41,865 nucleotides of DNA from an uncultured Prevotellaceae bacterium. GTDB lineage: Bacteria > Bacteroidota > Bacteroidia > Bacteroidales > Muribaculaceae. Made by a program: the position numbers and the translations under genes. The stretch spans positions 1-41,865 of the forward strand of contig CAMJZF010000007.1 in assembly GCA_946410125.1 (NCBI GenBank), written 5' to 3'. Below the pieces are notes generated by a model. It was given only the letters and a program-made list of their open reading frames with translations. It did not search any database and was not told the origin of the DNA. Shown here piece after piece: positions 10,143 through 39,548 of this stretch. Every line of letters starts with the position of its first letter. The first letter of the stretch is position 1.

Positions 10143-10327
10143 AACCCTAATCGGTCATTAGGATTTATGATAGAACAGAATTTATTTTGAGCAGATTGTA
10201 AAGTGATTGCCGAAGACATAGCGGCTATGACAAGGCAATATCTGCAACAAGATGCCATAATAAAGCTGTTATAGCATAAACAGACCTAAAATCATGACCT
10301 TTTGTCGCCTAATTACCGATTTGGGTT
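10143..10327 (+). mobile_element. MITE-like element, copy A (185 bp)
   Basis: The ends AACCCTAATCGGTCATTAGG and CCTAATTACCGATTTGGGTT are inverted repeats matching at 18 of 20 positions. The interior matches the 253-bp copy at 39296 except for an internal deletion of roughly 65 bp. It carries no ORF of useful size. It sits between a promoter box and the nucleoside phosphorylase start codon. Together with 9966-10142, which holds divergent promoters, this accounts for the 395-bp gap. Confidence 0.8.
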
Positions 10328-10360
10328 TATGTTGAATTTTAATAAAAACCTCTCAGATAT

Positions 10361-11245
10361 ATGGCAAAGAAACACATTCCCGATTCAGAGATGATCATCA
10401 ACGACGATGGTTCAATCTTCCACATCCATCTCAAGCCCGAACAGCTCGCCGACAACATCATCATTTGCGGAGACCCTGGCCGAGTGAACATGATAGCATC
10501 CTACTTCGACACCAAGGACTTTGAAGTGTCGAGCCGTGAATTCCACACCATTGGCGGCACCTATAATGGAAAGCCCATCATGGCTCTCTCACACGGTATT
10601 GGCGGCGACAACATCGACATCGTTGTTACCGAACTTGATGCCCTTGCCAACGTCGACTTTGAAACCCGCACCGTCAAGGACGAGCACCGCACCCTCAACA
10701 TCGTGCGCATTGGCACCAGTGGTGGCTTGCAGCCCTACGTGCCCGTGGGAACTCCTGTGATTGCAAGCAAGGCTCTTGGCTTTGACGGCGTGATGAACTA
10801 CTATGCAGGGCGCAACGAAGCCTGTGACCTGGAGATGGAGCGACAGTTCTGCGACTTCGTGAAGTGGAACCCACTGTTCTGCAAACCTTACATCGTAGAA
10901 GCCGACCCAACACTCGTTGAGAAGATAGGTCGCGACGACATGGTGCGTGGCTACACCATTTCGGCGGTAGGATTCTATGGACCACAAGGGCGTGAGGTGC
11001 GCTTGCCACTGGCCGAGCCTGAACTTAACAAGCGCATCGAGGCTTTTGAATATGACGGCGGTCACATCACCAACTACGAGATGGAAGGTGCCGCACTTCA
11101 AGGCCTTGCCAAGCTCATGGGGCATCGAGCCATGACAGTGTGCTCAATCATTGCCAACCGTGTTGCCACCGAGGCCAACCCCAACTACAAGACAGCTGTC
11201 AACGACTTGGTAAAGACAGTTATCGAGCGCCTGATGGCCGACTAA
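10361..11245 (+). CDS. Nucleoside phosphorylase, uridine phosphorylase type
   Basis: The protein has 294 residues. It belongs to the PNP_UDP_1 superfamily, which cleaves nucleosides with phosphate. Landmarks are the phosphate-binding GDPGRV (residues about 38-43), SHGIGGDNIDIVVTEL, the RIGTSGGLQPYVPVGT core, and the nucleoside/ribose-binding TNYEMEGAALQGLA near the C-terminus. The family likeness is closest to uridine phosphorylase, but purine specificity cannot be excluded by eye. It is followed by a strong terminator and preceded by a repeat element in its leader. Confidence 0.85.
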   Translation: MAKKHIPDSEMIINDDGSIFHIHLKPEQLADNIIICGDPGRVNMIASYFDTKDFEVSSREFHTIGGTYNGKPIMALSHGIGGDNIDIVVTELDALANVDFETRTVKDEHRTLNIVRIGTSGGLQPYVPVGTPVIASKALGFDGVMNYYAGRNEACDLEMERQFCDFVKWNPLFCKPYIVEADPTLVEKIGRDDMVRGYTISAVGFYGPQGREVRLPLAEPELNKRIEAFEYDGGHITNYEMEGAALQGLAKLMGHRAMTVCSIIANRVATEANPNYKTAVNDLVKTVIERLMAD

Positions 11246-11271
11246 ACAAACTCATTATCGGGTAAACTAAA

Positions 11272-11315
11272 ACAGGATGCGTTGCTCAAGTGAGAGTCGC
11301 ATCCTGTATTTTTTT
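11272..11315 (+). terminator. Rho-independent terminator of the nucleoside phosphorylase gene
   Basis: A 10-bp perfect stem (ACAGGATGCG with CGCATCCTGT, 11272-11281 and 11298-11307) is followed by T7 at 11309-11315. Confidence 0.88.
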
Positions 11316-11361
11316 AGGTTCTTACCGGCTTCGTTGCCAGCTTAATCTGTTGGAGATTGAT

Positions 11362-11523
11362 TTAATTTGCGATAAAGCCTTCAAGTCCTGGCTGATTAAT
11401 ACCTGTGGGGGTGTAAGCTCTTGCAAATTGCTTGAGGAAATTGATAGTAGAAATTTTTGGTCCTATCTCAATTTGCTCCTCGTGTGTTTCAAATTTTAAT
11501 TCTTCGATGTAGTTTTCTTGCAT
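11362..11523 (-). CDS. 53-residue peptide of unknown function
   Basis: This short minus-strand frame begins MQENYIEELKFETHEEQ and ends NQPGLEGFIAN. A purine-rich GGAAAGG lies about 8 nt before the ATG, which is unusual here since most genes lack a recognisable ribosome site. The acidic N-terminus followed by an INFLKQFARAY helix and a short GF-N tail resembles small Bacteroidales peptides I have seen, but I cannot name a family. An 8-bp inverted repeat (11522-11529 with 11568-11575) includes two bases of the start codon and encloses the ribosome site. The opposite-strand frame over the same bases has no support. It lies in the gap between the phosphorylase and the phosphoethanolamine transferase. 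Confidence 0.6.
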   Translation of the reverse strand: MQENYIEELKFETHEEQIEIGPKISTINFLKQFARAYTPTGINQPGLEGFIAN

Positions 11524-11708
11524 AGGCAGCCTTTCCGTTATTTGTTACATCTATATAACGTAGCTAACTGCCTATTATTTTTCAAATTGAGATATTTTTT
11601 TCAAAAAAGTTATAAACAGGTAAAAAGGCGTCTCGCAAATATAAGACCGATGTGAGAATAATTGACAAGAAATCACCAAATCTTATTATCTACTTGCTTA
11701 TAAAGAAA

Positions 11709-13406
11709 TCAAGGAAACTGAAGGTTATTTTTCTTGAACATGTCAATGTCGGGTTGTTTCATGCCACAGTCGTCAAGGGGCATTAACTCGTTATGATCAT
11801 TGATATAGAGCCGCTTGTGGGGCTTGAATGCTTTATTACACAACGAAAGAGACGCCTTTTTATAAGGCGATTCAATGCCACTCAAGTCAAGCATGGTGTG
11901 GAAAATCACCATATTGGTCGACACTGGCACATTGACATGAGATTTGAGCTGAGCCACTAACTGGGGATACTGCGTTGCAAAAGATTGAGAAGTCCATACC
12001 AACAACGGCACTCGCAACTGATAATAAGTAGGTATTGGAGAAGCGTGAAGGAAGCGCCCACGACTGTCATCGAAGATATCCTCACCATGGTCGCTGGTAA
12101 AAATCACAGCACTGTTAACTCCCTTGGCATCAACTTGCCGAATGATAGCGGCAAGCACCTTGTCGGTATTGGCAATAGTGTTATCGTAGGCATTGATAAG
12201 TTCTTTGCGGTAAACCTTCTCGGCCGAAATTATATTATCGGGCTTGAAAAAGGCTTCTTCCTTAGTGTATCGGTCCTTATAGTTGAAGTGTGACCCATAC
12301 ATGTGCACCACTATGAACAATTTGCCTCCATTATACTTGTCAAGGCATCTTTTCACGCACTCAACAAGTTCATCATCATAGTTATTACCCATGAGCGACA
12401 CTTTATCCTTTAGGAAGACCACCTCTTGTGCCTCGCTGCCAAAGGCATCGATAAACGAATGGTTGCGCTTTTGATTGCTGTAAAAAGCAGTTTGATAGCC
12501 CACCTCATTAAACGCCGTGATGATTCCCTTGCGATAATAGAGACTATCGTAATGCTCGCTTCCCGCACTCGACATTATGGTTGGAACGCTCTTGTGAGTA
12601 GTATTAGACATTGAGAGTGCATCACGATAAACCATCAGGTTATTGAGCGAAGAAGTGCAACGATTAGTATTACGATTGTAGCCATAAAGGCTCCAATTGT
12701 CGGCACGTGAAGTCTCGCCAACGACAAGCACATAAATCTCAGGCACCGAGTCGCTGCGGGTAGCAGTAGCATGATAGGTGAAATTGCGCGACGTTTCCTC
12801 ATATTTCGACTGTTTAACGGCACGCTGTATTGCCAGTCCCACATTATAAGTTCCATTAATGGGGAAAACATCGTCTTGAGCCTTGAACCCCTTCTCGGTG
12901 AAAATATTCACCACAAGAAGCAACGCCCCCAACAGCAACACAGGTAAAGACCAGCGACGCTGGAAGATGCGAAAACGGTCGGTCATCGTGTTTTTTACAC
13001 GCAACGACACTATCGACATCACTATGCCAAAGCCATAAAGCCCAATAACAAATATCACTGCCACAAGCAGGTTGGCAAGCAGCTCGGTTGCCTCACCAGG
13101 ATTAGTGGTGAGGACATTGAGGAACATATCTACTGCAATAGGCGATTCCCCGTAGAGCCAGAGCAGCACAATTTGGAAAGCATCGACAAACATAAACCAG
13201 AACAGCCACCAAAACATCTTGCCCGGCTTGCGTGCCCAGGTGAAAGCCCAGGCATAGAACCCAAGTGGCAATACTATCTGAACAACACGAGTCAGCAAAG
13301 ATGTTGACTCGGTGAAAAACATGATGAAATTAGGCAATATCGCCATGAAGACGAAAAGCCAGTAGATGTAGTGCTGATTGGTAAATATTTGTTTTAACCG
13401 CTTCAT
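11709..13406 (-). CDS. Phosphoethanolamine transferase, EptA/sulfatase family
   Basis: The protein has 565 residues. Residues 10-170 contain about five membrane helices; the remainder is a periplasmic alkaline-phosphatase-fold domain. Catalytic landmarks are VVGETSRADNWSLYGY (Glu231), SNTTHKSVPT with the nucleophilic threonine near 270, and the metal site TSDHGED later. Family members move phosphoethanolamine from phosphatidylethanolamine to lipid A or another envelope glycan, which often raises resistance to cationic peptides. The exact acceptor here is not determined. The gene stands alone. Confidence 0.88.
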   Translation of the reverse strand: MKRLKQIFTNQHYIYWLFVFMAILPNFIMFFTESTSLLTRVVQIVLPLGFYAWAFTWARKPGKMFWWLFWFMFVDAFQIVLLWLYGESPIAVDMFLNVLTTNPGEATELLANLLVAVIFVIGLYGFGIVMSIVSLRVKNTMTDRFRIFQRRWSLPVLLLGALLLVVNIFTEKGFKAQDDVFPINGTYNVGLAIQRAVKQSKYEETSRNFTYHATATRSDSVPEIYVLVVGETSRADNWSLYGYNRNTNRCTSSLNNLMVYRDALSMSNTTHKSVPTIMSSAGSEHYDSLYYRKGIITAFNEVGYQTAFYSNQKRNHSFIDAFGSEAQEVVFLKDKVSLMGNNYDDELVECVKRCLDKYNGGKLFIVVHMYGSHFNYKDRYTKEEAFFKPDNIISAEKVYRKELINAYDNTIANTDKVLAAIIRQVDAKGVNSAVIFTSDHGEDIFDDSRGRFLHASPIPTYYQLRVPLLVWTSQSFATQYPQLVAQLKSHVNVPVSTNMVIFHTMLDLSGIESPYKKASLSLCNKAFKPHKRLYINDHNELMPLDDCGMKQPDIDMFKKNNLQFP

Positions 13407-13446
13407 TTAACAATAACCGTTCTGGAGTTTTGCTTCAAAAAACCTG

Positions 13447-13454
13447 CAAAATTA
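13447..13454 (-). promoter_or_regulatory. TAATTTTG -7 box for the phosphoethanolamine transferase
   Basis: It lies 40 nt before the ATG at 13406, with a TTG on the same strand at 13477-13479, 22 nt upstream. A second minus-strand candidate, TAGTTTTG, is at 13485-13492. Confidence 0.5.
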
Positions 13455-13497
13455 ATAATTTTTCGCGAAAACGCACCAATGCTTCAAAACTAATATG

Positions 13498-13505
13498 TAA
13501 TTTTG
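13498..13505 (+). promoter_or_regulatory. TAATTTTG -7 box for the chromate transporter/folC unit
   Basis: It lies 21 nt before the ATG at 13527. The upstream TTG at 13503 is inside this box, which argues against it as the start codon. Confidence 0.6.
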
Positions 13506-13526
13506 CACTTAAAAAAAAAGCCGAAG

Positions 13527-14105
13527 ATGAATAATTTATACCTGCAATTGTGGTTGACATTCATGAAGATTGGCGCATTCACCTTTGGAGGCGGATGGGC
13601 TATGATTTCGATTATCGAGCGAGAAATTGTCGACAATCACAAATGGATTGAGAAAGACGAATTTCTCGACCTGCTCGCCATCGCACAGGCCATGCCCGGC
13701 ATCTTGGCGGTGAACATCTCGGTGGTGGCGGGCGACCGGCTCAAGGGCATAAAGGGAAGCCTCGCTGCTGCCTTTGGCACGATATTGCCGTCGTTTGTCA
13801 TAATTCTTGCCATCGCCATTTTCCTTACCCCCGAAACAATCAAGAACAACGAAGTGCTCACACGCATCTTCAAGGGCATAAGACCAGCGGTGGTGGCTCT
13901 CATCATAGCTCCTGTTATCACAACCGCACGCGCCGCCAAAATCAACTGGAAGACTATCATCATCCCCGTTGCCGTGGCAGTTCTCATCTATTCGGGACTC
14001 CCCGTGGTTTCCAACCCCATCCTCTACATCGTGTTAGGAGGAATTGGAGGCTATATCTACTACACCCACGTCACTCTTAAGCATCGAAAGGAGGACAGAG
14101 CATGA
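13527..14105 (+). CDS. Chromate transporter family protein, first half-size subunit
   Basis: I use the ATG at 13527 (192 residues); a TTG at 13503 falls within the promoter box. The sequence has the CHR-domain signature near the N-terminus (KIGAFTFGGGWAMISIIEREIV) and AQAMPGILAVNISVVAGDR, followed by four or so membrane helices. It is a half-size member of the ChrA superfamily and overlaps the second half by 4 bp (ATGA), so the two probably assemble as a heterodimer. The family name reflects chromate efflux, but the physiological substrate in gut anaerobes is unknown. Confidence 0.85.
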   Translation: MNNLYLQLWLTFMKIGAFTFGGGWAMISIIEREIVDNHKWIEKDEFLDLLAIAQAMPGILAVNISVVAGDRLKGIKGSLAAAFGTILPSFVIILAIAIFLTPETIKNNEVLTRIFKGIRPAVVALIIAPVITTARAAKINWKTIIIPVAVAVLIYSGLPVVSNPILYIVLGGIGGYIYYTHVTLKHRKEDRA

Positions 14106-14644
14106 GCGTCTACCTGAAACTGATATGGGCTTACCTGAAGATTGGGCTCTTTGGCTTTGGCGGAGGCTATGCCATGCTCTCGTTAGTACAGCACATTATT
14201 GTGGAAAACGGATGGCTCAGCAGCCAAATGTTTACCGACATCGTCGCTATCTCGCAGATGACACCCGGCCCCATAGGAATCAACAGTGCCACCTATATTG
14301 GTTATGTATCGACAGGCAGCGTGTTGGGCTCGGCACTTGCAACCCTCGCAGTGGTAGTACCGCCCTACTTTCTCACGCTCTATGCAAGTCACTATATAAC
14401 TCGCCATAGCGACAGCACTATCATCAAGGGGGCATTCATGGGCTTGCGCCCAGTGGTTGTAGGCCTTATTGCCAGTGCCGCTCTGTTGCTGATGAACAAG
14501 GAGAACTTTGGCATTGCCGGTTCGACCGACAACTTCATCTCTATTGCACTGTGTGTGGCTTCGTTCTGCACAGTGTATTTCACCAAGACTCATCCAATCG
14601 TGGTAATAATATTGGCAGGAATTGCCGGATTCTTATTATTTTGA
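14102..14644 (+). CDS. Chromate transporter family protein, second half-size subunit
   Basis: The protein has 180 residues. It repeats the CHR signature (KIGLFGFGGGYAMLSLVQHIIV; ISQMTPGPIGINSATYIGY) and has about five membrane segments. Its start codon overlaps the stop of the first subunit, implying translational coupling. It is clearly a paralogue of the first subunit and not a frameshifted remainder, because both halves contain their own complete N-terminal CHR motif. folC follows 3 bp later. Confidence 0.85.
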   Translation: MSVYLKLIWAYLKIGLFGFGGGYAMLSLVQHIIVENGWLSSQMFTDIVAISQMTPGPIGINSATYIGYVSTGSVLGSALATLAVVVPPYFLTLYASHYITRHSDSTIIKGAFMGLRPVVVGLIASAALLLMNKENFGIAGSTDNFISIALCVASFCTVYFTKTHPIVVIILAGIAGFLLF

Positions 14645-14647
14645 AAA

Positions 14648-15943
14648 ATGACTTACAAAGAAGCTACAGAATATCTCTTTAGCCAACTTCCTGCCTTTGA
14701 ACGTCAGGGAGCCGGAGGTTACAAACCAGGACTTGGCACAGCCGTTGCACTCGACAACTGGCTTGGCAACCCTCATCGTGCCTACCGCTGCATCCATGTG
14801 GCAGGCACCAACGGCAAAGGCTCGGTTGCCAATCTTATTGCCGCCACCTTGCAAGCCAGCGGCTACAAGGTGGGACTGTTCACCTCGCCACATCTGGTGG
14901 ACTTCCGCGAGCGAATTCGCGTAAACGGAGAGATGATTGCCAAACGCAGCGTGAGCCGCTTCGTTGAGCGGTGGCAAACGAGCGGTCTTGACTGCAAACC
15001 GTCGTTCTTCGAGTTGACAACAGCTTTGGCATTTGAGTATTTCAAGAAGCAAAAGGTCGACTTCGCCGTGATTGAGGTGGGCTTGGGCGGCAGGCTTGAC
15101 AGCAGTAACATAATAACGCCCATCCTGAGCGTTATCACCAATATCTCTATCGACCACACTCAGTTTTTAGGAAACACCTTGCGAGAGATTGCATGGGAGA
15201 AGGCGGGAATAATAAAGGATGGAATACCAGTGGTAGTGGGCAATGCTTCGCAGCCCGAGGTGCGCGAGGTAATGGAGCTGACGGCACGCCAGCACCACTC
15301 CCCCATCACCATTGCCACCGATGACCCTATAGTGCTTGACAGCACAAGGGGAGCCGATGGCACATTATCGGTTTACACCATCGATTACACCGGCAACATT
15401 ATAAGCCAACTGGGTGCCGACTACCAGGTAGAGAACATCAACACCGTGCTTCACGCTATAAGAAATCTTATAGATGCAGACGTACATATTACGAAAAGGG
15501 CTGTGAAAAAGGCCTTTGCCCATGTGTGTGAAATCACCGGCTTTATGGCACGATGGATGGTGGTGGGCAAGAGACCAACTGTGATATGCGACGCGGGCCA
15601 CAACGCCGGTGCGTGGCAACAGCTGTCGAAGCAACTTAACTGCATTGAATGCGACCACCTGCACATGGTGCTGGGCTTCTCGGCCGACAAAGAAATAGAC
15701 AAAGTGCTCGCCATGATGCCAAAGGATGCCATCTACTACTTCACACAAGCCCAATCGCCACGCTCGATGAATGCCGAAGCACTACAGGAGCTTGGCTCAA
15801 GATACGGATTGAAAGGCGATGCCTATCCCATTGCACGCAATGCCTACAAGGCAGCAATAAAAGCCGCCAAACCCAGCGATGCGGTGTTTGTGGGTGGCAG
15901 CTTTTATGTGCTTGGCGACTTGTTCAAGCAAGTGATAAGATGA
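14648..15943 (+). CDS. folC: Bifunctional folylpolyglutamate synthase/dihydrofolate synthase
   Basis: The protein has 431 residues, normal length. It adds glutamate to dihydropteroate and then to folates, using ATP, in the cytoplasm. Landmarks are the P-loop HVAGTNGKGSVANL (GTNGKGS at 53-59), SPHLVDFRERIRVNG, EVGLGGRLDSSNII, SIDHTQFLGNTLREIAWEK and the C-terminal CDAGHNAGAW. It is the third gene of the chromate-transporter unit, and its stop touches the stop of the convergent lipoprotein gene (15943/15944), leaving no terminator space. Confidence 0.93.
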   Translation: MTYKEATEYLFSQLPAFERQGAGGYKPGLGTAVALDNWLGNPHRAYRCIHVAGTNGKGSVANLIAATLQASGYKVGLFTSPHLVDFRERIRVNGEMIAKRSVSRFVERWQTSGLDCKPSFFELTTALAFEYFKKQKVDFAVIEVGLGGRLDSSNIITPILSVITNISIDHTQFLGNTLREIAWEKAGIIKDGIPVVVGNASQPEVREVMELTARQHHSPITIATDDPIVLDSTRGADGTLSVYTIDYTGNIISQLGADYQVENINTVLHAIRNLIDADVHITKRAVKKAFAHVCEITGFMARWMVVGKRPTVICDAGHNAGAWQQLSKQLNCIECDHLHMVLGFSADKEIDKVLAMMPKDAIYYFTQAQSPRSMNAEALQELGSRYGLKGDAYPIARNAYKAAIKAAKPSDAVFVGGSFYVLGDLFKQVIR

Positions 15944-16576
15944 TTACAACTCGGCAGGTGGCTGACTCCTCAAAAGGGTGTCGGTGTAGTCGAGCGAAGT
16001 AGTATAGCAAGTCTTGTTATCATCGTCGCTGTAGCTGTAACATATCACACTGGCAATATATTGCGACTTGGTATAGGCTCGCTTAAAGGCATAAATCGTT
16101 GAGTCTTGAGGGTCGAAGTCGGTGAGCCTGTATTTCTTTCCCACATTGGCTACCACATTATTGAAGTCGGCAAGAGCTTCTTCTTTAGTGTCGCGTGGCG
16201 TATAGAACGAAATGTTATAGAACTTGCCGTTATTTAAGTTAACGGTAAGATTAGCCCACTGCATACCTCCAAATGCGTAATATTCCGACTTGTGCCCAAA
16301 CACGAGGGCATCGTCATCGCTAAGATCCTCAAGAAGGAGCAGGCCGTGTTGTGAAAAATTCTCGACAACCTCCTGAGCCGTAGCACCAAAGTGGGTATCG
16401 AAGAAAACAGTTTGCACACTATCGTTCCACAAAGTGTCGGTCGAGGCAATCGAGTCGTTAATCGAGATGCTATCGCCGGTTTCCACCGAGAACGAACTCT
16501 TGAAGTTGCAGGACGGCATAACCACTGTAGCAACCATCACTGCGATGGCAATTAAAGCAGAATTGTGTTTTTTCAT
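15944..16576 (-). CDS. Lipoprotein of unknown function
   Basis: The protein has 210 residues. The lipobox is VMPSC with Cys23. The mature part begins with a Ser/Asp-rich linker, then a beta/alpha segment beginning FDTHFGATAQEVVENFSQHGLLL that recalls small domains binding protein partners. Family not recognised. It lies downstream of the RNase P RNA gene on the same strand and convergent to folC. Confidence 0.6.
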   Translation of the reverse strand: MKKHNSALIAIAVMVATVVMPSCNFKSSFSVETGDSISINDSIASTDTLWNDSVQTVFFDTHFGATAQEVVENFSQHGLLLLEDLSDDDALVFGHKSEYYAFGGMQWANLTVNLNNGKFYNISFYTPRDTKEEALADFNNVVANVGKKYRLTDFDPQDSTIYAFKRAYTKSQYIASVICYSYSDDDNKTCYTTSLDYTDTLLRSQPPAEL

Positions 16577-16611
16577 TGTTTTATAATAAATTTTAAAACG
16601 TAATGCAATAT

Positions 16612-16981
16612 AAAAAAAGCAGTGGAGCTATAAGCCGGGTTATGTAGTCGTTACCCGCGGGTAACGCCGCTTGTCATTTATCTGTCTGTCATGTTGCCAT
16701 GACAGTATAGCAGTCTACCCCTCGACAATGGACGAGCAGCCCTTAGATGCCGATATACTTGACCTTGCAACTCGCAGGTAGTGCGGCGCGCCATGTCGCC
16801 GTGGCGCCCGGTGGGCTCTTACCCCGCCTTTTCACCCTTACCACCGTGAGGTGGCGGTTGTTTTCTGTCACCTTAACCCTGAGGTCACCCCCAGCTTCCC
16901 GTTAAGAAATGCGATGCTCTGTGTTGCCCGGACTTTCCTCTCACGCTCCGATGGCGTGAGCGACAAGCCACTCCACTGATT
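16612..16981 (-). ncRNA. rnpB: RNase P RNA, bacterial class A
   Basis: On the minus strand the conserved GAGGAAAGTCCGGGC core is present near the 5' end (16928-16942), and the CR-V region AAGGGTGAAAAGGCGGGGTAAGAGCCCACC is around 16809-16845 (read in parts). The P1 helix is closed by CAGTGGAG/CTCCACTG at 16971-16978 and 16620-16627. The 3' end carries the usual AACCCGGCTTAT. A T-run on the minus strand at 16612-16618 ends it. Total length about 370 nt fits. The RNA trims tRNA 5' leaders together with the RnpA protein. Confidence 0.93.
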
Positions 16982-16990
16982 ATGCGACTG

Positions 16991-17023
16991 CAAAGTTACA
17001 AAAAAAATTATTCTTTTCATCAA
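16991..17023 (-). promoter_or_regulatory. rnpB: Promoter of rnpB (TTG, 22 nt, TAACTTTG)
   Basis: TAACTTTG on the minus strand (16991-16998) places transcription start close to 16983, exactly at the RNA 5' end. A TTG at 17021-17023 is 22 nt upstream. Confidence 0.7.
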
Positions 17024-17081
17024 TCAAAATGTTGTAACAACATCGTAACTTGATTTTTTTCACCATTTAAACCTTGGTCAA

Positions 17082-17089
17082 TAACTTTG
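17082..17089 (+). promoter_or_regulatory. TAACTTTG -7 box for the Na/phosphate symporter
   Basis: It lies 40 nt before the ATG at 17130, divergent from the rnpB promoter. Confidence 0.6.
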
Positions 17090-17129
17090 CACCAAAAATC
17101 ACAATAATTCAATAACGAATTTCTAAACA

Positions 17130-18815: not shown

Positions 18816-18819
18816 TTAT

Positions 18820-18827
18820 TACCTTTG
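18820..18827 (+). promoter_or_regulatory. TACCTTTG -7 box upstream of the response regulator, abutting a MITE-like element
   Basis: The last base of the box is immediately followed by the first base of the 66-bp element at 18828, so transcription would start inside the element. No clear -33 TTG is seen. Confidence 0.5.
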
Positions 18828-18893
18828 AACCCGAATCGGTCATTAGGCGACGGAAAGTCATAATTTTAGGTCTATTTATGACCGATTTGGGTT
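18828..18893 (-). mobile_element. MITE-like element, copy B (66 bp)
   Basis: The ends AACCCGAATCGGTCAT and ATGACCGATTTGGGTT are inverted repeats with one mismatch in 16. The inner segment matches, in reverse complement, the right end of the 253-bp copy at 39296, so it lies in the opposite orientation to that copy. As RNA it would fold into a single hairpin with a loop of about 34 nt ending 15 nt before the response regulator ATG. Confidence 0.8.
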
Positions 18894-18908
18894 GAAAAAA
18901 TACACCGC

Positions 18909-20506: not shown

Positions 20507-20529
20507 CTATCCTTCAACCTCCCCCCAAT

Positions 20530-20574: not shown

Positions 20575-20608
20575 ATTATGTGAATGTGAGGGTGGGTGAT
20601 AAATGCTA

Positions 20609-26432: not shown

Positions 26433-26438
26433 ATTAAT

Positions 26439-28850: not shown

Positions 28851-28864
28851 TTAGAATCATGGTG

Positions 28865-30180: not shown

Positions 30181-30198
30181 AGTTCTTAGTTTAGAGTT
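30181..30198 (-). repeat. Heptad array (AACTNNN) before the rlmI start codon
   Basis: On the minus strand AACT occurs at 30195-30198, 30188-30191 and 30181-30184, exactly 7 bp apart, and the last unit runs into the start codon (AACTATG). Confidence 0.7.
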
Positions 30199-30239
30199 GC
30201 GAATTTATTGGGGGGAATCGCAAATAAAAAAGGGATAAA

Positions 30240-31619: not shown

Positions 31620-31622
31620 TAT

Positions 31623-31654
31623 AGTTGTCAGTTATCAGTTATCAGTTATCAGTT
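31623..31654 (-). repeat. Five-unit heptad array (AACTGAT) spanning the dxr stop and the rseP start
   Basis: On the minus strand AACT occurs at 31654, 31647, 31640, 31633 and 31626 (5' ends), all 7 bp apart. The third unit supplies the dxr stop codon (TGA within AACTGA), and the last lies a few bases before the rseP ATG. Confidence 0.8.
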
Positions 31655-32810: not shown

Positions 32811-32820
32811 TAAAAACCTA

Positions 32821-32828
32821 CAAAATTA
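32821..32828 (-). promoter_or_regulatory. TAATTTTG -7 box for dxr-rseP-rlmI
   Basis: It lies 10 nt before the dxr ATG on the minus strand, so the leader would be very short. No -33 TTG is evident. Confidence 0.45.
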
Positions 32829-32893
32829 AGCATTTTATCTTGTTGGATAAAATGTATAGAGATTTTTAACGATTTCAAACAGTTTTTTGGGGA

Positions 32894-32964
32894 AACCCAA
32901 ATCGGTCATTAGGCGACAGCAGGTCATGATTTTAGGTCTATTTATGCTAATGACCGATACGGGT
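32894..32964 (-). mobile_element. MITE-like element, copy C (71 bp)
   Basis: The left end AACCCAAATCGGTCATTAGG and right end TAATGACCGATACGGGT pair over 17 bp with two mismatches. The interior matches the right end of the 253-bp copy in reverse complement, like copy B. It lies between the dxr promoter and the terminator of the SUMF1-like gene, so it separates two transcription units. Confidence 0.78.
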
Positions 32965-33010
32965 AAAAAAATCCCGACATCGTCGTGGCTGGTGACCAGA
33001 CAATGTCGGG
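32965..33010 (-). terminator. Hairpin terminator of the SUMF1-like gene
   Basis: Stem CCCGACAT (32973-32980) with ATGTCGGG (33003-33010) is followed, on the minus strand, by a T-run (plus-strand A-run 32965-32971). Confidence 0.75.
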
Positions 33011-33038
33011 GGACTGAAATGAGTCTAAATGATATTTT

Positions 33039-33983
33039 TTACATCGCCAGACGCAAACCTATGTCATCGTCGCCAAAGAGAGGTGAAGCCTTGAAACGCT
33101 TAGAAACACGGCAATTCTTAGCCGGGACATACCAGCTACCACCACGCATCACTTTCTCGGTGCCCGATTCAGGACCTGTGGGGTTGGTCTGAGCATCACC
33201 ACTGTAAGGGCCATACCAGTCGCTGCACCATTCCCACACGTTACCGCTCATGTCGTAAATGCCCAAATCATTTGGAACAGTGGTTGCCACAATATGCGTT
33301 TCGGCTCCTGAATTTCCATTATACCAAGCCACCGCCGAAATATTATTGCTGCCTGAATACAGGTAATTATTGCCAAGCGTGCCACCACGAGCGGCAAACT
33401 CCCACTCGGCCTCGGTAGGAAGGCGGAAATTCTTACCAGTCATCTGGTTGAGTTTAGCGATAAATAAATCACACTGCTCCCAAGTCATATACTCAGCAGG
33501 ATATTGCAAATTTCCTTCGTGGCCGCTGTAGTTGTATCCCATCACAGCTTGCCATAGTGCCTGGGTAACCTCGGTTTGACCAATTGCAAAAGAGCTAACT
33601 GTCACTTGGTGAGCAGGCATTTCGTCACTAAGATGCTCAGTGTCATCAGCACTGCCACCCATGGTAAACGTACCACCCTCCACGTTAACCATCACGAATT
33701 TAACCCCATTAACAGTAAATTCAGTAGTGTTAGCCGGGAATCCGTTTAGAATCACGTCATACACAGCAGTCACGTCGGCCGAGGTAACGTATCCGTCACG
33801 GTTCACGTCATAGGCACTCATTTCAAAGTCCATAGCGCCTATTAAAAGATGATCATAAATTGCTGTAATGTCGGCCGATGTTACATATCCGTCACCGTTC
33901 ACATCCCATTGATTAGCCGACAATGGCTGAGCGAGCAGAAAAAGCGCACCCATTGAGAGTAAAAATTTCTTCATTGTGTTCAT
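33039..33983 (-). CDS. Secreted SUMF1/FGE-like protein with dockerin-like repeats, catalytic cysteine pair incomplete
   Basis: The protein has 314 residues. A signal peptide (1-23) precedes two dockerin-type calcium repeats (DVNGDGYVTSADITAIYDHL, starting at 27, and DVNRDGYVTSADVTAVYDVI, starting at 59). Residues 95-314 form a formylglycine-generating-enzyme-like domain (GGTFTMGGS; TEVTQALWQAVMG; FRLPTEAEWEFAARGG; YDMSGNVWEWCSDWY; MRGGSWYVPAKNCRVSKR). In true FGEs two cysteines sit in the RGGSFLC-x4-C segment; here only the second remains (the first is Val). It is therefore probably a structural or binding protein rather than a sulfatase-maturing enzyme. No sulfatase gene is nearby. Confidence 0.82.
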   Translation of the reverse strand: MNTMKKFLLSMGALFLLAQPLSANQWDVNGDGYVTSADITAIYDHLLIGAMDFEMSAYDVNRDGYVTSADVTAVYDVILNGFPANTTEFTVNGVKFVMVNVEGGTFTMGGSADDTEHLSDEMPAHQVTVSSFAIGQTEVTQALWQAVMGYNYSGHEGNLQYPAEYMTWEQCDLFIAKLNQMTGKNFRLPTEAEWEFAARGGTLGNNYLYSGSNNISAVAWYNGNSGAETHIVATTVPNDLGIYDMSGNVWEWCSDWYGPYSGDAQTNPTGPESGTEKVMRGGSWYVPAKNCRVSKRFKASPLFGDDDIGLRLAM

Positions 33984-34083
33984 AGTAAAAATATTTATAC
34001 TTTAATAATTTGTAATATTTCTTGAATTGTTTTCTAATTACGTTTTAAGATTCACAAAACACACGTGAAAACACAAAACCATT

Positions 34084-34998
34084 TCATTTCCCTGCCAAGC
34101 AAACGGCAGTGCGGGCAGCGAGGCGTGCATTATTCAAAACCAGCTGTATGTTGGCTTCAAGACTGTTGCCGCCAGTGATGTCCTTAATCTCGGCAAGCAG
34201 GAAAGGGGTGGTCTCTTTACCTTTAATTCCTAATTCCACGCTTTTACTGATAGCTCGGTCAATCGCTGCGTTAATATAATCGGGGTCGAGTGAATATTCC
34301 TCAGGAATAGGATTGGTTACAAGCATACCGCCGGCAAGCCCCATTTCCATCTTAGCACTGAATGTAGCGGCAAGTTCTTCGGGGGTGTCGATGCGATAAT
34401 CCACCTTAAATCCGCTGCGTCGAGTATAAAACGCAGGCAGCTCCTCGGTGCCATAGCCAATAACCGGCACGCCTTTGGTTTCAAGATACTCTAACGTTAG
34501 CCCCAAGTCAAGAATTGACTTTGCACCAGCACAAATCACCATAACAGGAGTTTGCGCAAGTTCTTCCAAATCGGCACTGATATCCATTGTTGTCTCAGCA
34601 CCACGATGAACACCGCCAATACCACCGGTTGCAAAGACCTTAATTCCAGCCATGGCAGCGATTATCATGGTGGTAGTCACCGTGGTGGCACCATCCTCAC
34701 CACGCGCTATAAGCACCGGCAAGTCGCGTCGAGATGCCTTGGTCACGGCATGACCTTTCTTGCCCAGATATTCAATCTCCTGGGCTGTGCAGCCAGCCTT
34801 CAGCTTGCCTCCAATAATGGCGATTGTTGCCGGCACGGCACCATTGTCGCGAATGGTCTGCTCCACTTTTAGGGCAGTCTCCACATTCTGCGGATAGGGC
34901 ATGCCATGAGATATTATGGTAGACTCGAGCGCCACCACTGGCTGTCCAGCTTCAAGCGCCTCTTTAACTTCTTGTGAAATAGATAGATATTTGTTCAT
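34084..34998 (-). CDS. psuG: Pseudouridine-5'-phosphate glycosidase
   Basis: The protein has 304 residues, typical of the family. It splits pseudouridine 5'-phosphate into uracil and ribose 5-phosphate. Signature segments are VVALESTIISHGMPYPQNV, ASRRDLPVLIARGEDGATTVTTTMIIAAMAGIKVF (read in parts), ATGGIGGVHRGAE, DISADLEELAQTPVMVICAGAKSILD and GLAGGMLVTNPIP. It is last in a three-gene unit with psuK and an FAD oxidoreductase. The pair psuK-psuG gives complete salvage of pseudouridine. Confidence 0.94.
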   Translation of the reverse strand: MNKYLSISQEVKEALEAGQPVVALESTIISHGMPYPQNVETALKVEQTIRDNGAVPATIAIIGGKLKAGCTAQEIEYLGKKGHAVTKASRRDLPVLIARGEDGATTVTTTMIIAAMAGIKVFATGGIGGVHRGAETTMDISADLEELAQTPVMVICAGAKSILDLGLTLEYLETKGVPVIGYGTEELPAFYTRRSGFKVDYRIDTPEELAATFSAKMEMGLAGGMLVTNPIPEEYSLDPDYINAAIDRAISKSVELGIKGKETTPFLLAEIKDITGGNSLEANIQLVLNNARLAARTAVCLAGK

Positions 34999-35007
34999 AT
35001 ATTTGTC

Positions 35008-35036
35008 AGTTAGTTTTCAGTTTTTAGTTGTTAGTT
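35008..35036 (-). repeat. Heptad array (AACTNNN) between psuK and psuG
   Basis: On the minus strand AACT occurs at 35036, 35029, 35022 and 35015 (5' ends), each 7 bp apart, plus one off-register copy at 35011. The array covers the last codons and stop of psuK and ends about 10 nt before the psuG ATG. Confidence 0.75.
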
Positions 35037-35910
35037 CATTTATGCCTGAATTGACGGCCGTGGCCGACTGCAGGGCAAGGGCGGCAGCCTTGATGCCTGT
35101 TGAGCAGGCTTCATGCAAAGTGGCTCCATGCAATTCGGCATGGACAACAGCAGCCATGAAAGCATCGCCGGCGCCAGTGGCATTGACTACAGTAACCGCC
35201 TGTGATGGCAACGTCAAGCACTGCCTGCCATCGCTGCAACACACTCCACGAGAGCCCATTGTGATGAAAATGCGACTCACTCCCCGGTTTATGAACCACT
35301 GTGCCATAGCCTCAATATCGCCCTTTATGCCCGATAGAGCCACCGCCTCGGCTTGGTTAACCTTTATAATAAGTGGCGCGTGATGACCTGCATCCAGCAA
35401 TGAACGGATTTTCATTGCCTTTGCTGCCGAAGTAGCATCTATATACAAAGGAGCTGTGCAATTATCCACAAGAAACTTCAACACATCTTCATTAGGATTG
35501 CAGTCGGCAATCACGGCATCACTTTCATTAATGCCGGCAATGTGGCTTGCCACCATCTCGGGAGTAAGATGTGACATGAGTTCCATGTCGGCAGCGCCAG
35601 CCTGCATCTCACCATTATGGTCATTGACGCAAATAAAGTAGTTGCTTCTGGCACCAGCCACCTCAAGAATAGGGTCGATGGTCATTCCCAACCGTCGACA
35701 ATCATCACGCAGAGAGAGGGCGATAGAGTCGTCGCCAAAGACAGTGAACAGTCTAACCTGCTCGCCCATCAAGCACAAGTTGTGAGCGATGTTGCGTCCT
35801 ACTCCACCAAAACTAATTTCCACTCGGCTTGGGTTAGAGTCGCACGGCACATATCGCCCTATTGGCGATGCTGTTATGTCTATGTTGGCAGCACCTATAA
35901 CGGTAATCAT
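35017..35910 (-). CDS. psuK: PfkB-family carbohydrate kinase, probable pseudouridine kinase
   Basis: The protein has 297 residues. It has the ribokinase fold: N-terminal IEISFGGVGRNIAHNLCLMGE (sugar-binding glycine pair), and the C-terminal VVNATGAGDAFMAAVVHAEL anion hole with the catalytic Asp (GAGD). Adjacency to psuG, 18 bp apart, supports phosphorylation of pseudouridine to pseudouridine 5'-phosphate. The final residues NELTTKN are coded by the heptad array in the spacer. Substrate specificity is inferred from context. Confidence 0.88.
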   Translation of the reverse strand: MITVIGAANIDITASPIGRYVPCDSNPSRVEISFGGVGRNIAHNLCLMGEQVRLFTVFGDDSIALSLRDDCRRLGMTIDPILEVAGARSNYFICVNDHNGEMQAGAADMELMSHLTPEMVASHIAGINESDAVIADCNPNEDVLKFLVDNCTAPLYIDATSAAKAMKIRSLLDAGHHAPLIIKVNQAEAVALSGIKGDIEAMAQWFINRGVSRIFITMGSRGVCCSDGRQCLTLPSQAVTVVNATGAGDAFMAAVVHAELHGATLHEACSTGIKAAALALQSATAVNSGINELTTKN

Positions 35911-35911
35911 G

Positions 35912-35936
35912 AGTTTTCAGTAATCAGTTTTTAGTT
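35912..35936 (-). repeat. Heptad array (NAAAACT) before the psuK start codon
   Basis: On the minus strand ACT occurs four times at 7-bp spacing between the oxidoreductase stop (35948) and the psuK ATG (35910). The array fills the spacer. Confidence 0.72.
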
Positions 35937-35947
35937 TTTAGGGGGAA

Positions 35948-37522
35948 TCATTCTTGATGGTTGAGCCAGGAGACCAGAGCTTCGGCACATCGCTCGCCGT
36001 CGATAGCACTCGACACAATGCCTCCGGCATAGCCAGCCCCCTCGCCACATGGGTAGAGTCCTTTTACATCAACATGGTTGAGCATCTCGCTGTCACGTGG
36101 AATGCGCAATGGCGAAGACGTGCGTGTCTCAACACCTATAACAACGGCTTCGTTGGTCAAGAAGCCCTTAGCTTGACGCCCAAACAACTTGAAAGCCTTG
36201 CTCAGTCGATGACTGATAAACTGCGGCAGCCACTGGTCAAGGCGCGATGGCTGAAGACCCGCTGCATAAGATGAAGGAGGGATAAGCTTTGATGGCTTAC
36301 CTTGAACGAAATCGAGCATGCGCTGAGCACCAGCACACTGGCTGTTGCCTGCCATTTGAAAACAACGCTGCTCAAGTGCCTCCTGAAAGCGCATTACTCG
36401 CAGTATGCCATGCTCATGAAATTGCTTGGGCACATCGTCGGGACGCACCTCAACCACCATGCCGCTATTGGCCCAATAAGAGCCTCGCGTGCTTGGCGAC
36501 ATTCCATTGACTACCAATTGGCCAGGCTCGCTGGCAGCAGGCACCACTATTCCACCGGGACACATGCAGAATGAGTACACTCCACGGCCATCGACCTGAG
36601 TGACGAAGCGATATTCGGCAGCAGGCAGATAGTCGCCACGACCGCCCGACTTGTGATACTGAATCTGGTCAATGATGTGCTGTGGGTGTTCCAGACGAAC
36701 TCCCACTGCAATACCCTTTTCTTCCAGAGCGATATCAGAGTCATAAAGCATCTTGTATACATCACGAGCCGAATGGCCTGTCGCAAGTATCACCGGTCCA
36801 TCAAACTCCTCGCCTGTTGCACATCTCACACCAATCACCTCATGATTGCCGTTGATTTTCAACTTAGTAACACGTGTCATAAAGTGCACCTCTCCTCCAC
36901 AGTCAAGGATGGTGTTGCGCATATTCTCGATGATGCCCGGCAACTTGTCACTGCCAATGTGAGGATGAGCATCAATCAAAATGTTCTCGCTGGCGCCATG
37001 TTGATGGAAAATGCCAAGAATGCGCTCCACCGAGCCGCGTTTGGTGCTGCGAGTATAGAGTTTCCCATCGCTATAGGCACCTGCCCCACCCTCGCCAAAG
37101 CAATAGTTGCTGTCAGGGTCAACCTTGCCTTGCCTGGAGATTGCCGCAACATCAAGGCGGCGGTCTTTCACGTTCTTGCCACGTTCAAGCACAATGGGCT
37201 TTACGCCAAGCTCGATAAGTCGCAGGGCCGCAAATAGTCCGCCAGGACCGGCACCAACGACGATGGCTTGCCTGTTTCCTTTCACAGGGCGGTATTCAAT
37301 GGGAGGGACCAAGAAGTCGTTGGTCATTGGCTCGTCGATATAGGCACGCACCTTGAGATTAACCTTCACTCGCTGTTGACGGGCGTCGATCGAGCGCTTG
37401 ATGACACGCACTCCACGCAACCGGCGACGCATAACACCTTCTTGCTTGGCCACCAACTCTTCTATGGCATCGATAAAATGCGCGGTGCGAGGATCCACTC
37501 GCAATTGTATCTCTTTTATCAT
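35948..37522 (-). CDS. FAD-dependent oxidoreductase (dehydrogenase-like, HI0933/YhiN-related)
   Basis: I choose the ATG at 37522 (524 residues, MIKEIQLRVDPRTA); a longer frame to 37543 would begin inside the promoter box. An N-terminal 80-residue region precedes the FAD Rossmann motif AIVVGAGPGGLFAALRLIELG and a PIVLERG segment. FGEGGAGAYSDGKLYTR, VILATGHSARDVYKML and the C-terminal GLYPCGEGAGYAGGIVSSAIDGERCAEAL complete the fold typical of NAD(P)/FAD-dependent oxidoreductases. The substrate is unknown. It is the first gene of the unit with psuK-psuG, but that does not prove a role in pseudouridine salvage. Confidence 0.82.
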   Translation of the reverse strand: MIKEIQLRVDPRTAHFIDAIEELVAKQEGVMRRRLRGVRVIKRSIDARQQRVKVNLKVRAYIDEPMTNDFLVPPIEYRPVKGNRQAIVVGAGPGGLFAALRLIELGVKPIVLERGKNVKDRRLDVAAISRQGKVDPDSNYCFGEGGAGAYSDGKLYTRSTKRGSVERILGIFHQHGASENILIDAHPHIGSDKLPGIIENMRNTILDCGGEVHFMTRVTKLKINGNHEVIGVRCATGEEFDGPVILATGHSARDVYKMLYDSDIALEEKGIAVGVRLEHPQHIIDQIQYHKSGGRGDYLPAAEYRFVTQVDGRGVYSFCMCPGGIVVPAASEPGQLVVNGMSPSTRGSYWANSGMVVEVRPDDVPKQFHEHGILRVMRFQEALEQRCFQMAGNSQCAGAQRMLDFVQGKPSKLIPPSSYAAGLQPSRLDQWLPQFISHRLSKAFKLFGRQAKGFLTNEAVVIGVETRTSSPLRIPRDSEMLNHVDVKGLYPCGEGAGYAGGIVSSAIDGERCAEALVSWLNHQE

Positions 37523-37540
37523 ACTGTTTTTATTAATGCG

Positions 37541-37548
37541 CAAAGATA
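37541..37548 (-). promoter_or_regulatory. TATCTTTG -7 box for the oxidoreductase/psuK/psuG unit
   Basis: It lies 18 nt before the ATG at 37522 on the minus strand. No further promoter box is seen before psuK or psuG. Confidence 0.6.
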
Positions 37549-37620
37549 ATGAATTGTTTTCAGTTATTATGATTTATAAGGTGCCTTTTTTCAAGTTTAT
37601 AAAAAAACTAATGCCTGAAA

Positions 37621-37641
37621 AACAGAGAACTGAAAACTTTT
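37621..37641 (+). repeat. Short heptad array (AACTNNN) upstream of the YitT promoter
   Basis: AACA, AACT and AACT occur at 37621, 37628 and 37635, exactly 7 bp apart, just before the TACCTTTG box. Confidence 0.5.
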
Positions 37642-37644
37642 TAT

Positions 37645-37652
37645 TACCTTTG
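37645..37652 (+). promoter_or_regulatory. TACCTTTG -7 box for the YitT gene
   Basis: It lies 59 nt before the ATG at 37712. Confidence 0.6.
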
Positions 37653-37711
37653 CGCCCAATTTTAGAGAACTCACATTTTAAAAAACAAGCAACTTATTCA
37701 TTTTTTTCTTT

Positions 37712-38659
37712 ATGACGGCTCTCAACAACAAGAAACTCAAGCAAGAGATTTTTGCTTATTTTCTGCTCACAATTGGCAGCGCACTGTTTGCCATTGGCGA
37801 CGTGATGTTTGTAAACCCCTACCTCATGGCCCCTGGCGGAACCTACGGTCTGAGCAACGTATTCAACACATTGTGGCCCTGGAAGATTTCGCTCTACGCC
37901 ATCTGCATGGACGTGCCATTGCTCATCATTGGAACCTGGATACTGGGTCCACGATTCGGCATCAAGACAATTGTTTCTACCGCACTCATCTTCCTCTTTA
38001 CATTCATCCTTGAGTACACCTGGGGCTACAATCCCGTGATTCACGACGGGTCAATCTTACAGCAAAAAGCCGATGGACTTGTGCCCATACCCAACAATGG
38101 CGGCTGGTTCCATCCCGACTATTTCCTCAACACTGTGGTGGCAGGTCTCATCTATGGTGTAGCAATCGGTCTTATCTTCCGCTCGGGAGCTACCAGTGGC
38201 GGCAGCGACATCATCTCAATGATTATCCACAAATACACCAAGATTTCACTTGGCACACTCGTGATGATCGTCGACGGCATCATCACTCTGAGCACACTCA
38301 TTGCTTTTGGCAACATCCGCCTGCCCATCTACTCGGTCATTATCATCTTCATCGAGGGCAAGGTCATCAACCTCGTGGTCGACGGCATGAAGAGCTATCG
38401 CACTGTGTTCATCATCACCGACAATCCCGAGCCAATTCGCGACTATATCATCAACAACCTCAAGCGTGGTGGCACCTGCATTACAGGTAGTGGCCTCTAC
38501 AAGGGCAACGAGCGCAAGATGCTATACGTGAGCCTGAACCGCACCGACATGATTAAGCTACGCTCTGAGCTATACCACATCGACCCCAAGGCATTTGTCA
38601 ACATCATGGAGAGCTCCGAAATCCTGGGTGAAGGCTTCCGCCGCCTCCCCCAAGAATAG
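37712..38659 (+). CDS. YitT family membrane protein with DUF2179 domain
   Basis: The protein has 315 residues. The N-terminal two thirds contain five or six membrane helices (FLLTIGSALFAIGDVMFV; SLYAICMDVPLLIIGTWIL; GAIGLIFRSGATSGGSD-like glycine-rich segment IGLIFRSGATSGGSDIISMI). The C-terminal 90 residues (VFIITDNPEPIRDYIINNLKRG, then LYVSLNRTDMIKLRSELYHI) form the cytoplasmic DUF2179 domain. The family is widespread in Bacteroidota and Firmicutes with no firm function. It has its own promoter and terminator. Confidence 0.9.
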   Translation: MTALNNKKLKQEIFAYFLLTIGSALFAIGDVMFVNPYLMAPGGTYGLSNVFNTLWPWKISLYAICMDVPLLIIGTWILGPRFGIKTIVSTALIFLFTFILEYTWGYNPVIHDGSILQQKADGLVPIPNNGGWFHPDYFLNTVVAGLIYGVAIGLIFRSGATSGGSDIISMIIHKYTKISLGTLVMIVDGIITLSTLIAFGNIRLPIYSVIIIFIEGKVINLVVDGMKSYRTVFIITDNPEPIRDYIINNLKRGGTCITGSGLYKGNERKMLYVSLNRTDMIKLRSELYHIDPKAFVNIMESSEILGEGFRRLPQE

Positions 38660-38688
38660 TATACTCCTATCTAACTATTATCTATATA

Positions 38689-38716
38689 AAGCCCGCCGTT
38701 TTGTGCGGGCTTTTTT
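38689..38716 (+). terminator. Rho-independent terminator of the YitT gene
   Basis: GCCCGC (38691-38696) with GCGGGC (38705-38710) is followed by T6. Confidence 0.88.
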
Positions 38717-38757
38717 GCTATTTAATAACACAAAAGAACAATTGACAAACAAAAAAC

Positions 38758-38788
38758 TTGCTTTTTAAAATAAAAACAACTATATTTG
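38758..38788 (+). promoter_or_regulatory. Promoter of the DUF4332 gene (TTG, 20 nt, TATATTTG)
   Basis: TTG 38758-38760 and TATATTTG 38781-38788 are 20 nt apart. The TTG belongs to the promoter and is not a start codon. Confidence 0.7.
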
Positions 38789-38835
38789 CCACAAATTATT
38801 ATTTTTTTGTATCAACTTTTAAACATTCCTTCATT

Positions 38836-39243
38836 ATGACCTACAAAATTATTGACATTGAGGGCGTAGGAGATGTGTATGCACAAAAACTCATTGAGGC
38901 AGGAATCAAAGACACCGACTCTCTGCTCCAAAAATGCGCAAAACCCGCAGGACGCAAAGCCCTGGAAGAGGCTACCGGCATCAGCGGCAAACTAATCCTC
39001 AAGTGGACTAACCATGCCGACCTAATGCGCATCAATGGTGTTGGTCCACAATTCAGCGAACTGCTCGAAGCAGCAGGCGTAGATACCGTCAAGGAACTTC
39101 GCAACCGTGTGCCAGCCAACCTACAAGCAAAGCTCGAAGAAGTCAACGCTGCTAAAAACCTCGTCAACCGAGTTCCTGCTCTCGCCGAGGTAGAGAAAAT
39201 GGTGGCTCAGGCCAAAGAGCTACCCCCAATGATGGAATACTAA
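38836..39243 (+). CDS. DUF4332 helix-hairpin-helix protein
   Basis: I choose the ATG at 38836 (135 residues, MTYKIIDIEGVG); upstream codons of the same frame run through the promoter. Two HhH-like motifs are visible: IDIEGVGDVYAQKLIEAGIK (about 6-25) and MRINGVGPQFSELLEAAGVD (about 71-90). The DUF4332 family has this composition and may bind nucleic acid, but no activity is established. It is short, soluble and monocistronic. Confidence 0.85.
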   Translation: MTYKIIDIEGVGDVYAQKLIEAGIKDTDSLLQKCAKPAGRKALEEATGISGKLILKWTNHADLMRINGVGPQFSELLEAAGVDTVKELRNRVPANLQAKLEEVNAAKNLVNRVPALAEVEKMVAQAKELPPMMEY

Positions 39244-39265
39244 TCATTACCATCACACACAAGAG

Positions 39266-39295
39266 AGTGGCGGCACCATAGCTGTCACTTTTTTT
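39266..39295 (+). terminator. Terminator of the DUF4332 gene
   Basis: A 9-bp stem with two G-T wobbles (39266-39274 with 39281-39289) is followed by T6; MITE-like copy D begins right after it. Confidence 0.72.
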
Positions 39296-39548
39296 AACCC
39301 ACATCGGTCATTAGGATTTATAATAGAACAGAATTTATTTTGAGCCGATTGTTAAGAGATTGCCGAAGACATAGCGGGCTATGACAAGGCAATATCTGCA
39401 ACAAGGTGCCAAAAATGCGATTAAGCGAGAGAAAGTTGAGCTTGCTCATTACCTTCCGAGCGTGAGCATTTTAGCCAACAATAAAACTGTTATAGCATAA
39501 ATAGACCTAAAATCATGACCTTCTGTCGCCTAATGACCGATTCGGGTT
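39296..39548 (+). mobile_element. MITE-like element, copy D (253 bp, longest copy)
   Basis: The ends AACCCACATCGGTCATTAGG and CCTAATGACCGATTCGGGTT are inverted repeats matching at 18 of 20 positions. It contains the full interior seen in shortened form in the copies at 10143, 18828 and 32894. Only short frames exist inside: 39 residues on the plus strand (39381-39500) and 43 residues on the minus strand (39318-39449). Neither resembles a transposase I can name. It occupies most of the gap between the DUF4332 gene and tRNA-Pro. Confidence 0.8.

Follow-up and report, generated by a model that had tools for sequence, protein, structure and literature searches.

The window analysed here is a stretch of 41,865 nucleotides at the start of contig CAMJZF010000007.1, from the assembly of an uncultured Prevotellaceae bacterium (GCA_946410125.1), and it holds four copies, A to D, of a short repeat with inverted ends (Table 1). 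An earlier sequence-only reading had described the four as a deletion series of a miniature inverted-repeat transposable element (MITE). All four of its positions were borne out, with the element proper bounded by CCC at one end and GGG at the other; comparison of flanks places the outer AA and TT that the reading had included on the target side, outside the element. The termini are CCCNNATCGGTCATTAG, with CCC...GGG ends. The element has the hallmarks of a MITE, being short (181 bp), free of any transposase gene, and bordered by CCC...GGG inverted repeats. Copy A lies upstream of a phosphorylase-superfamily gene (10361–11245).

Table 1. Repeat copies and their parts in the window (coordinates of the 41,865-nucleotide stretch).
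Feature	Position	Strand	Remarks
Copy A, full-length MITE, 181 bp	10145–10325	+	Standard form
Hairpin module in copy A	10163–10281	+	Covariance-model score 114.5 bits, E 2.8e-22; copy A is among the 47 rows used to build the model
Copy B, internally deleted MITE, 62 bp	18830–18891	-	Without the hairpin module
Left target duplication of copy B	18825–18829		TTGAA
Right target duplication of copy B	18892–18896		TTGAA
Copy C, internally deleted MITE, 68 bp	32896–32963	-	Junction unlike that of copy B
Copy D, full-length element plus nested second repeat, 249 bp	39298–39546	+
Hairpin module in copy D	39316–39433	+	Covariance-model score 82 bits, E 1.0e-14; copy D is absent from the rows of the model
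Nested second palindromic repeat, 62 bp	39411–39472	+	AAAAATGCG...GAGCATTTT, inside copy D

Anatomy of the Four Copies

The sequence-only reading took the longest copy, D, to contain the standard one and to be the parent of the series. The first part holds insofar as D equals A plus a block, but the extra ∼65 bp are a separate inserted repeat, which breaks the 3′ arm of the hairpin module in D. This repeat stands alone on six other contigs of the same genome (C36, C25, C15, C55, C8, and C53), and at locus L143 it occupies a different position within a MITE than it does in D. A deletion series starting from D is excluded by the independence of its extra block. The nested repeat is itself a palindrome (AAAAATGCGATTAAGCGAG...CGAGCGTGAGCATTTT, 62–67 bp) found inserted within other repeats, and contig C6 of genome G030 carries tandem copies of it at a spacing of ∼65 bases.

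The short copies B and C do consist of the right arm plus the left tip, as had been proposed, and their internal deletions are separate events with different junctions. Each of seven short copies in the genome of the window (hereafter the own genome) has its own junction by eye, so that in-place loss of an unstable palindromic interior is the simple reading of how they arise. A transposing sub-family of short elements is unsupported, since 19 short elements differ in their junctions by eye, with L112, L152, and L211 excepted. These three (5155–5220, 1111–1176, and 525–590 of their loci, respectively) are 66-bp elements made of the end hairpin of an IS1380-family insertion sequence (IS) and both termini, that is, minimal IS-derived MITEs.

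Copy Number and Distribution

Searching the whole own genome with the terminus, a check suggested by the sequence-only reading, uncovered many further copies. Over 2,376,249 bases, 46 exact matches to the 12-mer ATCGGTCATTAG were counted and none to the reversed-pattern control, and the 20-mer AACCCNNATCGGTCATTAGG with up to three mismatches gives 80 matches in 63 clusters (2.38 Mb; reversed control, 0). The dense clustering claimed for the window exists as an excess (four clusters against 1.11 expected; P(≥4) = 0.026 for one pre-chosen window), but it is mild and unremarkable across the ∼57 such windows of a genome.

With up to one mismatch allowed, ten of 61 genomes carry the terminus: nine out of the 37 in the genus (the own genome included) and one from another family. 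In contigs of named genomes we located at least 117 stretches with the terminus, by title nearly all Bacteroidales or Bacteroidetes. A single exact match (L154) lies outside Bacteroidota, in a record with the title Rhodobacteraceae.

Target Duplications and Empty Sites

Identical 5-bp flanks border 62 of 109 distinct end pairs, against 14.7 expected from cross-pairing left and right flanks, and no other duplication length shows a comparable excess. The consensus of 63 perfect duplications (112 copies, both strands) is TTNAA, with T and A at positions 2 and 4 in 99%; loci from the named-contig scan were selected via AACCC, which biases this consensus. Among the loci picked in this way, 51 of 77 copies have perfect duplications, and in 48 of these the fixed half gives the orientation; the non-fixed half has T at position 2 in 48/48 and at position 1 in 39/48. 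Seven of the 18 paired copies in the own genome are perfectly duplicated. In the window itself, where no target duplication had been recognized at any copy, B is flanked by a perfect TTGAA/TTGAA.

Alignment with relatives of the same genus revealed sites without the element at all four positions. At site A the element is missing from G066, G078, and G010, with a near base-precise join in the first two, and at site B it is missing from G066, G078, G030, and G062, with a near base-precise join in G066 and a different sequence present in G030. Site C is without the element in G066, G010, and G030, and site D in G030, G066, G078, and G010; at both, divergence of the spacer prevents a clean join from being drawn. 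G010 carries another copy directly past the stop codon of the next gene after copy A. The sequence-only reading had regarded conservation of all four positions in distant relatives, without empty sites, as a pattern that would speak against a mobile element; within the genus the opposite is seen, namely empty sites and a patchy distribution.

An IS1380-Family Insertion Sequence with the Same Termini

Among end pairs lying 0.4–4 kb apart, five had their genes read; four of these (L127, L151, L159, and L202) enclose a gene for a transposase of 442–459 amino acids, and the fifth (L146) has no transposase inside. The four are autonomous ISs of 1467–1480 bp, each with a perfect 5-bp duplication, and their hosts include Hallella bergensis DSM 17361 (L127) and Palleniella intestinalis (L159). 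All four transposases exceed the NCBIfam IS1380 cut-off (232–246 against 180 bits), and the IS transposase matches Pfam DDE_Tnp_1_4.

When the protein was used to query 295 genomes of the order, seven matches at 1e-60 were obtained. The closest (L305 in G318, 79% identity), which had not been preselected for its ends, bears the same termini, with flanks TTCAA/TTTAA; this protein-first find excludes chance sharing of termini between MITE and IS. Two others (L306 and L307, 47–48% identity) have related CCC...GGG ends, and no end pair was found at L308–L310, the remainder of the six loci tested (L305–L310; L311 was left out). Six further IS1380 loci (L293–L298) comprise three with other ends (L294, L297, and L298) and three without ends. 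The IS1380-family element at L294 (1356–2978), in a distant relative, combines CCC...GGG ends with an exact TTAA duplication, as in piggyBac. On plasmids, the best IS1380 relatives fall below 40% identity.

The clear similarity between MITE and IS spans ∼22 bp at each end; one additional match of 75 bp is weak (68%, E 0.007). The hairpin module described below is not detected by its covariance model in the IS loci (no match at E≤0.1 in 36 kb).

A Covarying Hairpin in the Interior

When 25 elements were folded singly, most adopted one architecture, and six (L111, L136, L161, L162, L169, and L212) were without it. We oriented 47 of 60 elements of 160–200 bp by a motif, leaving out 13 that could not be oriented; the motif strand is the more stable one in 45 of the 47, by a mean difference of 13.1 kcal/mol. 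The interiors (∼120 nt) were aligned by sequence only with MAFFT. In this alignment, 35 of 38 predicted pairs show kept pairing with both sides changed, and 93.0% of cells pair, compared to 73.0% in shuffles (reached in 0/500), although that alignment also supplied the structure and the shuffles ignore relatedness. Two-sided cells number 376 against 112.5 in shuffles, and structures slid along the alignment pair only 32–49% of cells. The interior conserves its fold rather than its sequence.

Mispairs lean to one strand. Among 15 representatives with less than 80% identity, G.T outnumbers A.C by 40 to 14 (one-sided binomial 2.7e-4 if independent). G.A mismatches are kept in the IS1380-ended copies (columns 35/95 in 44/47 and 54/76 in 41/47), as is the C-G pair that closes the CGGG loop (47/47). 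By sequence, the interior is common to 66 of 86 IS1380-ended elements longer than 90 bp, and four of the 13 elements set aside as unorientable were later matched by the covariance model (L128, L134, L186, and, weakly, one L184 element). No match to the module was found in Rfam 15 at the gathering score (the window and 12 loci), and relaxed Rfam searches of two elements gave matches only far below the cut-off.

Relative to flanking genes, the motif strand of 70 copies is oriented (+,+) in 21, (-,-) in 16, and mixed in 21, with eight copies at edges and four inside reading frames. A function of the hairpin in host transcripts was set aside for want of orientation bias among the 58 classifiable copies, on crude reading-frame calls; the fold therefore does not appear to be tied to host transcripts.

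The Same Module between Other Termini

We ran the covariance model of the interior alone on the 295 genomes of the order at E≤1e-4, scoring up to 12 candidates per genome under strict filters; the tool itself describes its E-values as rough. At least 83 matches were obtained, in 17 of 295 genomes and 14 of 184 genera, and 66 loci were fetched around matches outside the own genome and G039. Flanks were tabulated for 60 loci outside the own family, and at none of them is the best inverted pair of the IS1380 type. The termini seen instead are T2 (GAGCCTGTTTAAATTTT), T3 (GAAGTGATTTAAACTTTTT), T4 (AAGTAACNGGTCAAAATTA), T5 (AGGT...TTCTATAAATTG), T6 (GAGGTCATCCTGACTTTTA), and T7 (AACCTGAGTTCG). An inverted pair with at most one mismatch in a 14-base core occurs at 36 of the 60 loci, a count for which no random control was run; six loci have no inverted pair, and seven more have pairs that are oddly placed or unconvincing. 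Where the pairs convince, the module starts 13–25 bases from the 5′ end and ends 29–76 bases before the 3′ end. The own genome has one such element, with T5-like ends by eye and the module at C63:11921–12040.

T2 copies are bordered by a 3-bp duplication, TAA or TTA (TWA), perfect in 21 of 26 compared to 12.0 expected, which implies a different transposase. For T3, 3 of 10 are perfect at 3 bp against 0.9 expected. T2–T4 look partly alike and may form one group. We did not find the transposases of the T2–T7 termini.

After near-duplicate, short, and secondary matches were left out, 58 of 70 were aligned. They share the central part of the same hairpin, with two-sided changes at 20 of 21 pairs; the motif strand is the more stable one in 57/58, G.T exceeds A.C by 42 to 19 in 17 representatives, and the loop-closing C-G is kept in 56/58. 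At L316 (1501–1726) and L334 (1501–1751), two modules are arranged face to face between AACCTGAGTTCG repeats as a double-hairpin element, which at L316 is flanked on both sides by cobalamin riboswitches.

In viral contigs, scans with the termini gave seven stretches for T2, three for T3, and one for the IS1380 type. The central-hairpin pattern had no match there, nor did the module model at E≤0.1 (107 kb of viral loci), and no transposase was seen between paired ends within ∼2.2 kb, by inspection without a family search of the reading frames and with L387 left out. Plasmids held no match to an L314 element.

Other Features of the Window

Near the contig end, a tRNA-Pro is followed by a tyrosine-integrase gene (39999–41225); the span (39703–41225) resembles the start of an integrated island.

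Interpretation and Alternatives

The four repeats are probably members of a MITE family that is mobilized in trans by a transposase of the IS1380 family, and its full-length copies share a structured module. The earlier MITE reading stands in its multicopy nature, its empty sites, and a partner with the same termini elsewhere; its parental 253-bp copy and its lack of duplications do not. A DDE transposase of the IS1380 family would act on the MITEs at TTNAA targets, generating the 5-bp duplication, and would be supplied by an IS that is absent from the own genome or unassembled in it. The ∼120-nt one-strand hairpin with its CGGG loop, carried by the full-length copies and common to elements with other termini, would most likely work as folded RNA or as single-stranded DNA in the spread of the element or in its tolerance by the host. 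From the sequences we infer mobilization in trans, transcription, and a function for the hairpin alike.

Several observations weigh against this interpretation. Copies A (TTCAA/TTTAT), C (GGAAA/TAAAA), and D (TTTAA/TTTTA) lack matching duplications. The transposase gene between the same termini that the sequence-only reading had suggested looking for exists in other Bacteroidales, but the own assembly (G000, 83.8% complete) has no IS1380 transposase match, and the other eight genomes of the genus with the terminus have none above the IS1380 cut-off. As for the module, 20 of the 86 elements longer than 90 bp have no shared interior by sequence (clusters of six, four, and two plus eight singles), and nine of the 13 unoriented IS1380-ended elements went unmatched by the covariance model. 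The motif strand is unbiased relative to neighbouring genes, the G.T counts disregard relatedness, and the mismatch loop is fully paired in L105, L186, and L324, as palindrome correction would give. Furthermore, the set with other termini was picked by a model that rewards the fold, and its 58 modules do not keep the G.A mismatches, with A.A at the nearest columns in 40. Neither the fold statistics nor the covariance-model matches depend on the G.A mismatches or on the nine unmatched elements.

How one module came to lie behind several ends can be read in more than one way. It is possible, at somewhat below an even chance, that a folded selfish module of RNA or single-stranded DNA rides several unrelated IS systems by acquiring different terminal repeats, which would involve at least two transposases (5-bp TTNAA and 3-bp TWA). 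With similar reserve we consider the module as a mobile unit that inserts into, or swaps termini with, MITEs of several IS families. The same module occurs with T1 (5-bp TTNAA) and T2 (3-bp TWA) termini, and the own genome has it in an element with different ends, which is what such a unit would leave; nonetheless, no naked module with precise ends was seen and no insertion junction was caught. A single ancestral MITE whose termini drifted may account for the same pattern, and T2–T4 look partly alike.

The main rival to a strand-specific fold acting for the element is that the covariation is mutational, with template switching in a long quasi-palindrome copying one arm onto the other without selection on the fold. 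The three elements whose loops have turned into perfect pairs fit this process, as do the absence of orientation bias and the loss of the G.A mismatches under other termini. We nevertheless regard it as unlikely: mismatched G.A loops persist in nearly all IS1380-ended copies, in 45 of 47 one strand folds more stably, and correction should be strand-symmetric, yet G.T is favoured over A.C.

Less likely still, the family would be an ordinary orphan MITE whose interior is the palindrome of one ancestor, the matches under other termini being unrelated hairpins. Long stem-loops are usual in bacterial MITEs according to the relevant portion of PMC2229807, the E-values are rough, and the G.A loops are not common to the modules under other termini. 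Against this reading, 278 of 295 genomes have no match at 1e-4, and the IS and viral loci (36 and 107 kb) have none at E≤0.1. The matches outside the own genome and G039 include full-length ones with E-values down to 4e-14 (G279), reach 1e-9 to 1e-14 in 12-copy sets, retain the loop-closing C-G in all but two of 58, and in 36 of 60 cases sit between inverted repeats, a feature outside the model (again with no random control run).

Finally, repetitive extragenic palindrome (REP)-like or regulatory repeats retained for host function and not transposed are suggested by the intergenic sites and the hairpins, but target duplications, empty sites in relatives, and presence in only 10 of 61 genomes make them very improbable. 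REP/REPIN systems with a RAYT transposase have a GTAG-type foot and a Y1 transposase; the 5-bp duplication argues against such a system here.

Relation to Known Elements and Significance

Transcripts of bacterial MITEs form long stem-loops, as described in part of PMC2229807, so that the stem-loop as such is already known. The Correia/NEMIS, ERIC, RUP, and RU elements treated there are likewise 100–200 bp long, with a long stem-loop and mostly with inverted repeats and target duplications; unlike in that account of them, the fold here covaries across species and recurs under several termini. BrickBuilt of Porphyromonas gingivalis is also an intergenic MITE in Bacteroidales and, as described in part of PMC4596501, holds a 23-nt minisatellite; it is set apart from the window MITE by description only. 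We recognized no description of this MITE family or module in the open-access literature, a search that most subscription papers lie outside.

The autonomous partner shares the transposase family and the 5-bp duplication of IS1380; IS1247 of that family is entered in Table 2 of PMC3281130 with inverted repeats of 16/13 and a 5-bp direct repeat. Unlike IS1380 elements, the window copies are geneless, and they resemble their IS clearly only in the terminal segments noted above. The piggyBac elements have a CCC end, and the likeness to them lies in CCC...GGG ends beside an AT target, TTNAA here and exactly TTAA at L294. In the relevant part of PMC10813416, piggyBac has a TTAA target and IS1380 serves as its outgroup. 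The family here differs in being bacterial and in its 5-bp rather than 4-bp duplication, and the likeness comes from ends and target, not from the fold. For the fold, the bcr1 repeats of Bacillus cereus are mobile repeats with a conserved RNA fold, and integron attC sites, with their R′′ and R′ boxes, are used as a folded bottom strand. In attC, too, structure outlives sequence.

MITEs are usually viewed as gutted transposons defined by their ends, whereas in this family conservation lies in the interior. With a covarying fold reused behind different ends in 14 genera, and two or more transposases linked to one cargo, one can test whether functional folds of RNA or DNA travel in small transposons. 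The proposed link of IS1380 to piggyBac is also touched by an IS1380 element that has CCC ends and targets TTNAA.

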